Source: Tolypothrix sp. PCC 7910
GTDB taxonomy: Bacteria; Cyanobacteriota; Cyanobacteriia; Cyanobacteriales; Nostocaceae
DNA length: 64,000 nt
Direction: 5' to 3'
Assembly: GCF_011769525.1 (NCBI RefSeq)
Contig: NZ_CP050440.1
Location: forward strand, 4,899,501-4,963,500
Positions 2,913-32,579 of the stretch are shown here, piece by piece (within the stretch, counting starts at the first letter, position 1; each line of letters begins with the position of its first letter). Under the pieces are notes generated by a model, which had not been told where the DNA came from, did no database searches, and saw only the letters and a list, made by a program, of their open reading frames with translations. The translations under genes were made by a program, and so were the position numbers.

Positions 2913-4907
2913 CTATTTAACAGATATTGGTTCAGGTAAATTAATCGCAGGATTACGGCTAAAGAATCCTCTAGGGGCAAGTTTAAAGCTAACTCGGTGC
3001 GTTGGCATCACAGGCCAATCTTCAGGGCGGGGAATATGGGTAACGCCCATTGTGTACCAAAGTACTATATCTTCACCAGTTAAAGGTTCATCATTGGCAA
3101 TATATTGAGGTAAACCTTTTCCTGGTTGAGTTTGATTAGGATAATCACCCCCAGCGTAGAGTTCATTTGGCTGATATTTTGTCACCCAAACATGATGTGT
3201 CGCAAAGCCAGCTTTTTCTCGAATCTTAGAACCTTCTACAGGGAAGAATACTGTATTAGCGCCTGGCATGAGCATATATGCTGGTGGAGTTCCTAAAGTA
3301 TTTTGGCGATTAGCGTTAGCAATCATCCATTCTCGGCTGTGTTTCATATCCAAATCGCGCACAGCAGCTTTTTCTGTAGTTAAGGGAGTATCTGTAACTG
3401 CGATCGCATTTCCTAGAGAATTATGATTATCCAACGGTAAGGCTTGCACATTCATTTCCATCACAGAATTAGCCTGTCCGTCTACATCCATATCTAGACG
3501 GTAGTTGAAGAAGTGTTGATGATTTACTCCAAAAATATTCTTGGCTAGCAGCCTTCCATAGGAATTATCTTCAGACTGTTTTTCCGCTGCTGTCCCTTGT
3601 ACTAAAACAATTCCCGTTAAATCATTCTCAATTTCTAAACTGCCATCTTGGTGAAAAATCCAATTCAGGCTGTAATCATAATTATCCACTGCTGCCGTCA
3701 TAGTCAGCACTAGTTCGCGATTACGACGGACATAATTTTTCTGGGTATTGTACTCATAATGTTTCCACAACATCCCATTATCTCGTTCATAAATACCAAT
3801 TACCTTTGGCATTTCGTAAGGTTCTCCCTGTTCGTTAGCCATTACCGCATTCAGCAATAAGCCATTTTCGGGAATATCTTTACCTAACTCCATTGAAGTT
3901 GCGAGAGAACCAAAGTTATATTCCCCCACATCAAAAGCATTTCTAAATGCCCAGTTAAAATTAGGATGACCATAAGGAACTACCATTTCTGATAGGCTAG
4001 CGCGGTATAAAACTGGGCGAATTTTTTCCCCGTCGTCATAAGTTACTTGGTAAAGAACTAACCCACTACGAGGATGCATCAAATAGCGAAAATTCCAACT
4101 TTGCCAGCTAATTGTATTACCGCGAATGCGGAAACTAGTACCTTGAGGTTGGAGAATTTTTAATAATTTTGGTGGTGACAGTAATTTACCTAAAGATTGG
4201 ATATCGTAATTCCAATTTTGTTGAGAGAAAGGTACAACCCCATTATCTATAAAACTATCGATTTTACCTGCGTTTAAATCAACAGTAGCTAGAACACCTT
4301 CAATTGGACTAGCAAAATAGTTCCAATGTTTACCTTTGTAGTAAGATAAAGCACGACAAAGACGCTTACCTTTAGCAGTTTCGATATCAGTTAAAATCCC
4401 TGATGCCCAGCAATTAATTTTAACTTTTTCAAAATCTGTAATTCCCCGTTTTTTCATTGCTGCTTGCCATTGGGGGTCAGATTGTACAATTTCTCGTGCT
4501 AAATCATATTCGGGGTTGATTAATGCAGGTTGGGCGTTAGGTATTTGCTTCCAAGAACTCAATGTTTGAGTTTTTATATCAACTACAGCTTCATAGGTTT
4601 GATTTGTTTTTCTCTCATACACTACCAAAAAAGCTTGACGTTGAAAAGATTTAGCTGGTGTAAAATTAATAACTTTTTTTTTATCGGGTTCTTGCAAAGT
4701 TATTAAAGGAAATACAGCTTTGTCAGTAAGATTTTTATCTTTCTTCACCACCGAAACTGCTGTATTAATTTCTGCTGATGTTAACGCTGTTAAAGGATGG
4801 GAAATCGCAGGTGGTTGTGCAAATAACATTTCCCTAGAACCTAAAGCGCCAACAATAAAAATAATAATGGCAATAGCTAAACTAAAGAACCGTAACTTCT
4901 TAATCAT
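2913..4907 (-). CDS. Copper-containing primary amine oxidase
   Basis: A 664-residue copper/topaquinone amine oxidase, which oxidises primary amines to aldehydes with release of ammonia and hydrogen peroxide. The N-terminal hydrophobic stretch (residues about 7-30, ending near MLFAQ) suggests export to the periplasm. The topaquinone precursor is Tyr410 in VDNYDYSLNW. Asp326 in NAFDVGEYNFG matches the catalytic base. Copper ligands are His463 and His465 (NHQHFFNYR) and a His in the HHVWVTKY segment near 571. It is somewhat compact but has every catalytic element, so it is probably active. It is monocistronic, and the substrate cannot be read from sequence. Confidence 0.92.
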   Translation of the reverse strand: MIKKLRFFSLAIAIIIFIVGALGSREMLFAQPPAISHPLTALTSAEINTAVSVVKKDKNLTDKAVFPLITLQEPDKKKVINFTPAKSFQRQAFLVVYERKTNQTYEAVVDIKTQTLSSWKQIPNAQPALINPEYDLAREIVQSDPQWQAAMKKRGITDFEKVKINCWASGILTDIETAKGKRLCRALSYYKGKHWNYFASPIEGVLATVDLNAGKIDSFIDNGVVPFSQQNWNYDIQSLGKLLSPPKLLKILQPQGTSFRIRGNTISWQSWNFRYLMHPRSGLVLYQVTYDDGEKIRPVLYRASLSEMVVPYGHPNFNWAFRNAFDVGEYNFGSLATSMELGKDIPENGLLLNAVMANEQGEPYEMPKVIGIYERDNGMLWKHYEYNTQKNYVRRNRELVLTMTAAVDNYDYSLNWIFHQDGSLEIENDLTGIVLVQGTAAEKQSEDNSYGRLLAKNIFGVNHQHFFNYRLDMDVDGQANSVMEMNVQALPLDNHNSLGNAIAVTDTPLTTEKAAVRDLDMKHSREWMIANANRQNTLGTPPAYMLMPGANTVFFPVEGSKIREKAGFATHHVWVTKYQPNELYAGGDYPNQTQPGKGLPQYIANDEPLTGEDIVLWYTMGVTHIPRPEDWPVMPTHRVSFKLAPRGFFSRNPAINLPEPISVK

Positions 4908-15765: not shown

Positions 15766-16968
15766 TTATACAAACTTTTGATTAAATTCATATATCAAAT
15801 CTACTCTGCCCTTGCGTAACATTGCCGGGTCTAATCTTTCTGTAGTATTACAAGTCATCAACACAACTAAACGCTGCTTCATCTGCAGACCAGATTCATC
15901 TACTACACTTTGATATAAAGTACCATCTAATAAACTCAGAATATGTTCTGTTTTATTGTTATACTGCGCCACTTCATAAGCACGATTTTGAGCTAAGTTA
16001 TCAGCTTCATTAATAATGATGCAAATTCTCTCTAAATAAGTGGGTGGTACAAAGTTAGTAATTGCATCATGATCTAAGATAAAAATGACAAAGCCTAAAG
16101 GTACAAGAATTTCTTGGGCTACTGCTTGTGTCCATGCAGTTTTACCTGTACCCGGTTCTCCATGTACGACAACAGCTAATTGATTTTGATTGAGAATTGA
16201 CTGTTGTACTGTGTCTGTAAAGCTTTGAATATCTGCTGGAAATGTGCGAATGGGAAATTGGCTGTTTACCTTACCTACACGACTTTGATAACCACTTAAC
16301 ATCACTGCTAAGTCATAAGTCGCTTTGCTAATTAAAGTAGCCATATCTCTGGCCATTAAAGTGTATTGTCTCCGTCCGCGATCGTAAGGGTCAATTTGCA
16401 GCCAAATATCGTATTGAGACCAATAAGCGTAAACAGTATTAATCACATCTATCCTTTCCCAATTGACAAATTTTTCAACAGGAAAGTAAAAATCACGTTC
16501 TGAATAATATTGAGTAATAATATCAGGACGGTCTAAGATTTTTAAAACTCGCAATACAGTGATTTCTTGCAAGCGATTGAGTACATAATCAATAGGAATA
16601 CTATTGCGGCTCACAAATTGCGTGATGGGAGTTTCTGTACTCAGAACTTCCTTATAGCGATTATCTGGTGTTAGCGGTTCTGGGGTAATAAAATTCCAAA
16701 ATTTTTGTAATTCTCCTCTTGTATAATCGGAAGCTACATTTAATATATTTGCCCACCAACTATAATCTCTTCTACCTAACGCATCAGCATAGTAACTTGC
16801 TAAGTTAATAGTTTTTTGGGTTAATTCGTGGGTGTCATGAAAAAGAATTTGTCCAAAATATGCCAAATCAAAGTCCCGTTGAAATGGCCGCCAACCACTA
16901 CTTAAAAGGTTTTGACGGTTGTTATTTGCGGAATTGCCTTCGTTATTTCTAAAATCATCAAAAACCAT
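15766..16968 (-). CDS. AAA family ATPase, 400 residues
   Basis: The first 240 residues form an all-alpha-looking domain with many aromatic residues that I do not recognise. The C-terminal 160 residues are an AAA+ ATPase: Walker A GEPGTGKT (270-277), a Walker B region ICIIINEAD (316-323) where Asn320 stands at the usual Asp, sensor-1 Asn374 (MTCNT) and a sensor/arginine-finger segment LDPAMLRKGRVD. The Asn for Asp change may slow hydrolysis or be tolerated. It resembles single-AAA remodelers such as FtsH/BCS1-type domains, but no protease or membrane anchor is present. Monocistronic; role unknown. Confidence 0.7.
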   Translation of the reverse strand: MVFDDFRNNEGNSANNNRQNLLSSGWRPFQRDFDLAYFGQILFHDTHELTQKTINLASYYADALGRRDYSWWANILNVASDYTRGELQKFWNFITPEPLTPDNRYKEVLSTETPITQFVSRNSIPIDYVLNRLQEITVLRVLKILDRPDIITQYYSERDFYFPVEKFVNWERIDVINTVYAYWSQYDIWLQIDPYDRGRRQYTLMARDMATLISKATYDLAVMLSGYQSRVGKVNSQFPIRTFPADIQSFTDTVQQSILNQNQLAVVVHGEPGTGKTAWTQAVAQEILVPLGFVIFILDHDAITNFVPPTYLERICIIINEADNLAQNRAYEVAQYNNKTEHILSLLDGTLYQSVVDESGLQMKQRLVVLMTCNTTERLDPAMLRKGRVDLIYEFNQKFV

Positions 16969-18117
16969 ATTTTTAGTGATGTAGCGGTAGTTGAATTAGT
17001 TGATGTTGACGTAGAAAAGCTGAAAAAGTTTTTTTTAGTATAATCTAGTACATCTATTTCGGAAAAAATAGCTTATCCGACAAAGCGATGCAGCACATCA
17101 AATCGCAATTTTGATTTTTATCAACAATCTTAGGGTAATTTTAATTTAGCGTAGTGGTAGTAGTTACTGGCGAGTTGCTAGTACTAATACACATGAACCC
17201 CCCCACTAGGTACTACCCACAACGTCAAAATTAGTGTTTCAGCTAAAATGAGACAATACACGCCCTAAAAAAATTGCTATCGAGCTAGAGTATATACACT
17301 TATCTAAAGGTGGCGGAACTTTATATTCTCAAGAATAAAAAAAAGACTGTGGTTAATTTTTGACAGTTAGTCTCTGTCTAACTGAAAGGAAGATAAAAAG
17401 GCATCTAAATATATGTAGTTGAGCATCTTTTGTATTACATTGTATTACAAAAATTCCTAACTTGTCAAGTCCGGACAATTCTGCTGGGATTGGCATCATT
17501 GTGAGTAAATATAGATCAGACATAACAATAGCAAGAAAATTATTGACTTATAGCTATTGGGCGATGCTATCCGTCTATTTTTATGCATACTTGTGAATTT
17601 AAATTAATTACAAGCTGGCTAGTGTTCGCTTAAACTCTAACTGTTATGCTGTGGGTAATCACCACTCTACAAATACTACTTAATAAGGCTATATTCATTT
17701 ATAGGATGATTTATAAGTTTTAATGCATTTGAGAAATCAGAGATAGATGAAATGGGCAGTCTCTACTTTTTTTTCTAATTATTGCAATTACTTGGTAATT
17801 TCCTTTTTTAAATACGGTGTATATTTAACTGCCAATAATGTACATAAAAGTGCATTATAGTTTGTTCATTAAGTTATATCTACTTTTTGTTATATTTGAA
17901 GTTCTTATGTTATAAACCTAAAAACATTCTTTAATTTTGCATATAATACAAGAGGTAACTGCTATAGCTTCAGATTGAGGTTTATGAACCTCAGCATATA
18001 CACCTTTGATCAATATTCTTAATTGCAAGATAGCGAAATGCTAGTCCATCCTTAATGGATAAAAATTTCTGATTCCGCTACTAACAATTACTCTTATTTC
18101 AATACTCGGGAGAAGAA
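16969..18117. other. 1.15-kb AT-rich intergenic region
   Basis: The longest gap in the window. Features visible by eye are a hairpin CAGTTAG/CTAACTG near 17362-17382, a direct repeat of TGTATTACA near 17430-17450, and a small inverted repeat TTGTC/GACAA near 17463-17479. I find no credible protein gene or known RNA. It separates the AAA ATPase gene from the signalling cluster and must hold the promoter of the response regulator at 18118. Confidence 0.4.
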
Positions 18118-31022: not shown

Positions 31023-31703
31023 TCATTTCTGAATCAGCCGATCGCGATCGCACAATCGAATGCTGGAACCGTTCATCTCAATGATTCCTTCTTGAGTGAG
31101 TTTATAGAAGGCGCGGGAGAGGGTTTCGGGAATTGTTCCTAAAAGTGCGGCGAGTTGTCTTTTGGGTAAGTCCAGTTCAACTACATCCTTACCTGTGCGA
31201 TCGCTTAATGTTAATAAGTAGTTTCCCAGCCGTTCAGGGACTTCCTGAAACGACAGGGTATCAACTAAATAGGTTAGCTTTCGTAAGTGTCGCGCAAAGG
31301 TTGCCAAAATTGCGATCGCTAAGTCTGGATGTTGTTGTATTACCATCAAAAATGCTGTTCGGGGAACAAATACCACCTCAGAATTTTCAATTGCTGCGGC
31401 TGAGGCTGGATAATGTCCACCATCGAAGGTAGGTACTTCGGCAAAATGTTCTTCAGCCGTAAATATATGCAGAATTTGCTCTTTGCCATCTTTTGCTACT
31501 TTAAAAACTTTAATTCTGCCAGATTTAACGATAAAGAATCCTGTACATTCATCTCCTTCTAGAAAAACTGTTTTTCCTTTTTTATAAGTTTGTACGATAG
31601 CAATATTCGCTAAGGCTTGCAGCTGCTCATCCAAAACATTCTGAAAAATCTGTGTTTTTCGCAAAAAATCTTGAATTTCTAAGACACGTTCACTAACACT
31701 CAT
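31023..31703 (-). CDS. Crp/Fnr-family transcriptional regulator
   Basis: A 226-residue protein: an N-terminal cyclic-nucleotide-binding-type beta roll (FLEGDECTGFFIVKSGRIKVFKV), a dimerisation helix (about 125-155), and a C-terminal winged helix with recognition helix in LPKRQLAALLGTIPETLSRAF. There are no Cys residues arranged for an Fe-S cluster, so it is not FNR itself; a cAMP or redox-independent ligand, or no ligand, is possible. It is not NtcA, whose sequence differs. It is followed by roughly 800 bases of AT-rich DNA on its upstream side. Confidence 0.92.
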   Translation of the reverse strand: MSVSERVLEIQDFLRKTQIFQNVLDEQLQALANIAIVQTYKKGKTVFLEGDECTGFFIVKSGRIKVFKVAKDGKEQILHIFTAEEHFAEVPTFDGGHYPASAAAIENSEVVFVPRTAFLMVIQQHPDLAIAILATFARHLRKLTYLVDTLSFQEVPERLGNYLLTLSDRTGKDVVELDLPKRQLAALLGTIPETLSRAFYKLTQEGIIEMNGSSIRLCDRDRLIQK

Positions 31704-32196
31704 ATTATTGAATTTTCGAGGTTGGATGATTAATTAACTTCTATATATTGCTGGTGTGAATATATCTATTACATCCTTCTTATAACAGGTTTATGATATT
31801 TTCAGTACCCACTGATTTTTGATTATGCAAATTTATATAAAAAGTTAAGAAATACTAATTTTTTATACTCTCAGGCTAATCTATTCCCTATTTAAAGCAG
31901 AGCTATATATAAATATTTTTTTATTTTACGCAGAAATGTAATGTCGGGCAAAAACGCAAGAAAAAGCTTAAAAATTAATTTAAACGGATTAAAGATGTTT
32001 AGTATATATAATTAATACGCTTAATTCAGGTAATTGCCATTTAATTTGTATTATCAAAAATAAAATTACCTGAAACTAAACATCAAAGTTACTACATTGC
32101 AAGGGTTAGCAAGATATTAGAGTCAAGTCGTGAACTCCTAAAATTGTAATACTTTAGCTTTTTCCTTTAAAAAATCTAGTTTTTAAATTGAATGAA
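31704..32196. other. AT-rich non-coding DNA upstream of the Crp-like gene
   Basis: About 490 bases with no credible gene. It holds the promoter of the Crp/Fnr gene and runs into the transposon-end-like segment next to tRNA-Ala. An imperfect inverted repeat AGGTAATT...AATTACCT is present near 32026-32073. Confidence 0.4.
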
Positions 32197-32241
32197 GTTT
32201 CAATTGACTATAAAGGCAAATTAATATTTCATAAATTAACA

Positions 32242-32268
32242 GGTTTGAAAGGAGCACTTCAATGGCAT
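32242..32268 (+). ncRNA. Putative truncated repeat-spacer unit (homing guide) matching tRNA-Ala
   Basis: GGTTTGAAAG followed without gap by 17 bases that match the tRNA-Ala gene. In type V-K transposons, single truncated repeat-spacer units with roughly 17-20 base spacers against tRNA genes are known to guide insertion. The match covers tRNA positions 22-38, not the 3' end, and is in inverted orientation, so it is not an integrase att duplication. Transcription is unproven. The 5' part of the repeat is not recognisable by eye. Confidence 0.5.
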
Positions 32269-32347
32269 ATTGCCAGAGTCTGTGCTATTTATACTTAGCT
32301 TGCACAATAGATCTACAGTCTATCTGACGGTAAGCTTGCCTTTATTT

Positions 32348-32498
32348 TGGACAAAAATTATTTAAAACTGGTTTCAACCCTGGACAAAAATTATTTAAAA
32401 CTAGATTAACATCTGAAAGCTTTAATAATAGGTCACTTATGTCCTATCAAATTGTCAAATTGGACAATAATTCTTTAAAACTGACAATAATAATTTAA
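32348..32498. repeat. 22-bp direct repeats (TnsB-site-like) beside tRNA-Ala
   Basis: Two identical 22-bp copies starting TGGACAAAAATTATTTAAAA lie at 32348-32369 and 32381-32402. A third with two mismatches lies at 32461-32482, and a shorter related copy, TGACAATAATAATTTAA, overlaps it at 32482-32498. The size, spacing and closeness to the presumed end resemble the multiple transposase-binding sites of Tn7-like ends. Confidence 0.7.
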
Positions 32499-32506
32499 TG
32501 TCCAAA

Positions 32507-32579
32507 TGGAGCTAAGCGGAGTCGAACCGCTGACCCCTTCAATGCCATTGAAGTGCTCTACCAACTGAGCTATAACCCC
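32507..32579 (-). tRNA. tRNA-Ala, anticodon GGC
   Basis: A 73-base tRNA that folds as a complete cloverleaf: acceptor GGGGTTA with TAGCTCC (two G-U pairs), D arm GCTC...GAGC, anticodon arm CTTCA-ATGGCAT-TGAAG with anticodon GGC (reads Ala GCC/GCU), T arm AGCGG-TTCGACT-CCGCT, discriminator A. The CCA end is not encoded. The 3' end abuts the transposon-end-like repeats. The gene itself appears intact. Confidence 0.95.

Follow-up and report, generated by a model that had tools for sequence, protein, structure and literature searches.

The window analyzed here is the whole 64-kb stretch of the genome of Tolypothrix sp. PCC 7910. It contains, between a Crp-like regulator gene and a tRNA-Ala(GGC) gene, the end of a CRISPR repeat joined to a short copy of the tRNA gene, followed by a region carrying repeated sites of the TnsB type. 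The features are as follows, from left to right:

31023-32240, no strand assigned: left flank outside the element, made of a Crp-like regulator gene (31023-31703, minus strand, recognized by eye) and its upstream DNA
32240-32242, no strand assigned: breakpoint at which the left flank, found in another context in relatives, is joined to the truncated CRISPR repeat (R*)
32242-32251, plus strand: 3′ end of R* (10 nt, GGTTTGAAAG), a truncated CRISPR repeat whose 5′ part has been swapped for foreign flank
32252-32268, plus strand: anchor (homing) spacer (17 nt, GAGCACTTCAATGGCAT)
32242-32504, minus strand: region interpreted as what is left of a type V-K CRISPR-associated transposon (CAST), namely its left end (LE), with the terminus at 32504, 54 bp from the PAM
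32348-32374, minus strand: TnsB-type end repeat, reading CAGTTTTAAATAATTTTTGTCCA on this strand
32381-32407, minus strand: TnsB-type end repeat
32461-32504, minus strand: terminal pair of TnsB-type repeats, GACATTAAATTATTATTGTCAGTTTTAAAGAATTATTGTCCA
32507-32579, minus strand: tRNA-Ala(GGC), the attachment gene, directed toward the LE
32542-32558, minus strand: anchor protospacer within tRNA-Ala (17/17 match)
32559-32561, minus strand: PAM GTA (GTN), located 5′ of the protospacer

The original prediction was that GGTTTGAAAG runs straight into a 17-nt match to tRNA-Ala and that this match is preceded by GTA in the tRNA gene; all its coordinates hold, the GTA being found at 32561-32559. In the window, GGTTTGAAAG occurs once and is followed with no gap by GAGCACTTCAATGGCAT, which is the exact reverse complement (17/17) of 32542-32558 in tRNA-Ala(GGC). 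The anchor and its protospacer are the sole 17-nt inverted pair lying within 320 nt in the whole window, and 30 first-order Markov randomizations of the window yielded no such pair. A degenerate pattern of R* plus anchor has a single match across the 8.76-Mb genome; the 17-mer is thus not a sequence common near unrelated loci. A scan against Rfam recovered the tRNA alone. Despite its shortness, the 10-nt remnant of R* ends like a V-K repeat. In relatives, the full R* is AGGGTGGTTTGAAAG and lies beside arrays ending in GGTGGGTTGAAAG.

Since tRNA genes are common att sites and a piece of one is duplicated nearby, the copy could in principle be an att copy left by the integrase of a phage or an ICE, or a piece of the tRNA repeated by chance, with no link to CRISPR. 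An att copy should repeat the 3′ end of the tRNA in direct orientation, close to an integrase. The copy found here comes from inside the tRNA, has the inverse orientation and measures exactly 17 nt, it follows a V-K repeat end and it lies inside a TnsB-type end that is found with Cas12k in relatives; no integrase was recognized by eye among the nearby ORFs. The original prediction had likewise taken an inverted match excluding the tRNA 3′ end to speak against an att copy. The CASTs carried by relatives at the same site contradict this explanation, which we rejected and which has practically no chance of being correct.

The region separating the guide from the tRNA had gone unnoticed in the original prediction. 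It carries, within 32269-32504, three copies of (T)GGACAAWAATTMTTTAAAACT (at 32348, 32381 and 32461), with a half-site at 32483 making a fourth, and is a transposon left end with TnsB-type sites. Read on the minus strand from the tRNA side, the junction is CCA-TT-TGGACATTAAATTATTATTGTCAGTTTTAAAGAATTATTGTCCA, where relatives have TGTACATTAAAT...TTGTCAGTTTTAAAGAATTATTGTCCA. The tip of the LE is mutated from TGTACA to TGGACA, and the intact TGT...ACA tip is thus missing. The distance of 54 bp between PAM and LE and the repeated TnsB sites are those expected of a V-K left end (46-82 nt from the PAM).

A study of CvkR that included 118 cyanobacterial V-K CASTs described the following layout: a tRNA gene points toward the LE, which lies downstream of it; R* is a single truncated repeat of about 12 nt; the anchor spacer has 17 nt; the PAM is GTN; and PAM and LE are 46-82 nt apart (PMC9938897). 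A review describes att-site guides likewise, in a more general way (PMC11406308). The window shares with the CASTs of the former study a tRNA gene reading into the LE, an R*, a 17-nt anchor that is read toward the LE and matches the adjacent tRNA, and a GTN PAM. Unlike them, it has neither array, tracrRNA, cas12k, tnsB/tnsC/tniQ, cargo nor right end (RE), its R* has 10 nt left and its LE tip is mutated. We compared it with 19 related Nostocaceae sites made of LE, R* and an anchor with at most two mismatches to the tRNA. All of them (19/19) have a GTA PAM, and PAM and LE are 54 bp apart in 15 of the 19, 55 bp in one and 57 bp in one, the end having been misplaced by the script in the other two.

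The comparison of the tRNA-Ala site in sister strains, suggested along with the original prediction, revealed the same anchor accompanied by an array, Cas12k and a right end. The segment is thus not one shared with strains devoid of any CAST history, since the nearest relatives carry a CAST at this very site. In a strain of the same genus (G014), whose tRNA-Ala/hisF region is 91% identical to that of the window, the order from the tRNA is LE, R* with the identical anchor, ten 37-nt repeats, Cas12k (678 aa, PADLOC E 9.7e-245), hsdM cargo, a TnsB fragment and RE, and the element is flanked on both sides by a CCATC duplication. TnsB pieces that adjoin each other in Nostoc linckia FACHB-104 (G015) and Calothrix membranacea FACHB-236 (G016) are separated in G014 by an IS66-type transposase gene; the G014 CAST therefore also looks inactive. 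In G015, the Cas12k gene carries stop codons. The CASTs of G014, G015 and G016 have the same tRNA, 17-nt anchor and insertion base as the window but, in contrast to it, have retained Cas12k and RE. In G013, the sequence to the right of the tRNA resembles the G014 sequence beyond RE, and this genome is read as having the empty site. The nearest LE by sequence (84%) belongs to a CAST from another genus, Scytonema sp. NIES-4073 (G086), which has the same anchor but differs from the window by the presence of an array, Cas12k and RE. The G086 anchor (L108/L046) differs at one position from the tRNA-Ala of its own genome and matches perfectly that of the genus of the window, a pattern that hints at a transfer between genera.

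No Cas12k or Tns gene, tracrRNA or CRISPR array of a complete CAST was found at the window site, and the window has kept neither a right end nor a target duplication that would prove the transposition of this copy. Because these genes are missing at the site, the element is a remnant and not a CAST. Nowhere in the genome is there a Cas12k of the G014 type, the best matches having 42% identity, and the search for a second end in the genome found the end motif only at this site, plus one match with two mismatches. The mutation of the LE tip agrees with the loss of the element.

The homology to the nearest sister element begins at exactly 32242. To the left of this position, 26654-32240 matches a G014 locus located 160 kb from its tRNA-Ala, a locus that goes on without any CAST. 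In G015, the left flank of the window (up to 31774) abuts an intact CAST right end, with cas12k on the same contig, and in G016 this flank and RE are 1.3 kb apart. Since this flank adjoins or nears RE in both genomes, the element appears to have been deleted between 32241 and 32242. In the simplest reading, the flank was ancestrally on the RE side and the window lost everything up to 10 nt before the anchor; we can only infer the path of this deletion, because the draft contigs of the sister strains break in between. Two other readings of the left flank were abandoned. A history of inversion or excision, based on G014 alone, was dropped in view of the G015 and G016 contigs, which show the left flank beside the CAST right end. 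A right end hidden in the left flank was rejected, as its weak 81% repeat at 31970 lies in sequence that is CAST-free in G014. At the G015 junction (C156 (L136) 16417-16425), the exact RE tip is joined to the flank with no matching target duplication, as might be expected after an adjacent deletion or a recombination between copies.

Taken together, these results make it very probable that a type V-K CAST once entered the site immediately downstream of tRNA-Ala(GGC), at 54 bp from a GTA PAM, that the LE of this element survives in the window and that its guide is now a fossil. By analogy with the known family, the transcript of the upstream tracrRNA and array would have supplied the R*-anchor RNA of the intact element; this RNA would have led Cas12k to the tRNA gene, and TnsB, TnsC and TniQ would have placed the element immediately beyond the 3′ end of the tRNA, leaving the tRNA undamaged. 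A later deletion with its inner breakpoint 10 nt upstream of the spacer would then have removed the array, tracrRNA, cas12k, tns genes, cargo and right end. The assignment to a V-K homing guide made in the original prediction thus agrees with the published anatomy, the 19 related sites and the sister CASTs.

The LE of the window is probably not simply that of the sister element minus its interior. The flanks of the window are 98.2% identical to those of G016 and 97.3% to those of G015 (95-98% across G014, G015 and G016), whereas its LE is only 79-80% identical to those of these three sisters and 84% to that of G086. By comparison, the LEs of G014, G015 and G016 are 95-97% identical to each other, which matches the divergence of their flanks. 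An LE that is about 20% diverged between flanks that are 2-3% diverged suggests that the insertion at this base was a separate one. The LE of the window would thus probably come from another CAST homed to this base or from a recombination between ends; its initial 46 nt resemble those of G015, so a mosaic LE is possible. In G016, a CAST with a CCACT duplication separates the tRNA from the remnant of an older LE. The contig (C149 (L138) 17811-17850) reads old LE terminus, AGTGG, then RE of the present CAST, that is a tandem insertion. Repeated use of a single base is a prediction of RNA-guided homing.

This tandem also bears on the idea that the remnant acts as a transposition-immunity site, either bound TnsB or mere occupation of the site shielding tRNA-Ala from CASTs of the same family. 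Anchor-bearing LEs without nearby Cas12k are not rare, and the TnsB-type sites of the window are well preserved, as this idea would have it. However, the older LE of G016 did not block the insertion of a CAST between it and the tRNA, and the persistence of such ends is equally explained by ordinary decay through deletion. We therefore consider protection of the site to be very unlikely.

The prevalence of these solo ends was estimated on anchor-bearing sites with about 10-18 kb of readable interior. A G014-type Cas12k is found near the anchor in 11 sites, among them those of G086 and G016, where, as in others, it lies 1-4 kb from the anchor. It is missing at the window and at five other sites (G108, G078, G152, G111 and G126), and it is broken at that of G165. 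Of these sites, only the window has its break inside R*. The numbers of mismatches to the tRNA are similar for orphan and Cas12k-linked anchors (0-1) and give no sign of selection on the orphan anchor. Solo anchor-bearing LEs are thus a recurrent product of the decay of CASTs.

It had been stated that no Cas12k or Tns gene remains. This is true of the neighborhood but not of the genome, since the search for such a locus elsewhere, also suggested with the original prediction, found two other V-K CASTs. One has TnsB, TnsC, TniQ and Cas12k; in the other, TnsB is split in two frames, accompanied by TnsC, TniQ and Cas12k, and the anchor matches tRNA-Arg. Both have their own arrays and anchors, different repeats and the ends TGTACATTAACTAATTATTTGTCA. 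The latter CAST (C1:7847944-7873767, L083/L084) is located at tRNA-Arg(CCG), with a matching 17-nt anchor, and may be inactive because of its split TnsB (L083:2222-2902 and 2970-3944). The other V-K CAST locus (C1:7181872-7203388, L081/L082) has the anchor ATGGGGCAAATTGAGAA, whose sole target has two mismatches and a GTC PAM; no tRNA was found nearby and its att site is possibly not a tRNA. The genome also carries, at C1:4667626-4672863 (L042:7626-12863), a Tn7-like gene set without Cas12k beside tRNA-Val (L042:13026-13099). It encodes a 900-aa TnsB-like protein of integrase type, a 383-aa TnsC-like ATPase and a 501-aa TniQ/TnsD-like protein (the TniQ domain was tested, the other assignments were made by eye), and its targeting of the tRNA is likely protein-guided.

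The original prediction left two options, a fossil homing guide or a guide serving another element of the genome in trans. The latter supposes that an orphan guide RNA (32215-32270) is taken up by the Cas12k and tracrRNA of one of the two resident V-K CASTs and directs insertions of the latter beside tRNA-Ala. The presence of two V-K loci with Cas12k, TnsC, TniQ and arrays lends itself to this option, as does the conservation of R* and anchor, which are identical over 27/27 positions to those of functional-looking relatives, against about 76-82% for the rest of the LE. However, the resident CASTs have a diverged Cas12k (42%), other repeats, the ends TTAACTAATTATTTGTCA and their own anchors, one of them directed to tRNA-Arg, and no element of their types is found at tRNA-Ala. 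Furthermore, R* is shortened to 10 nt, the array promoter is lost and promoter-like matches upstream of the orphan guide are at chance level. Use in trans, although conceivable, is thus unsupported and very improbable; the orphan guide is probably not transcribed and has neither its own transposase nor a second end. More generally, it is very improbable that the orphan anchor-bearing LEs, in the window and at the five other tRNA sites, keep a function, be it as guides in trans or in protecting their site.

The element is of a kind already known, of which the window is a decayed member reduced to a fossil LE and homing guide, and this fossil LE reveals no new mechanism. Its different LE within the same flanks and the tandem ends of G016 suggest that the same tRNA base has been hit repeatedly by different CASTs, and the comparison of related sites suggests that CASTs frequently decay to solo left ends. 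Overall, this work indicates that V-K homing guides can be recognized from about 30 bases after the loss of all genes, so that past RNA-guided transposition at tRNA genes can be reconstructed from solo ends.
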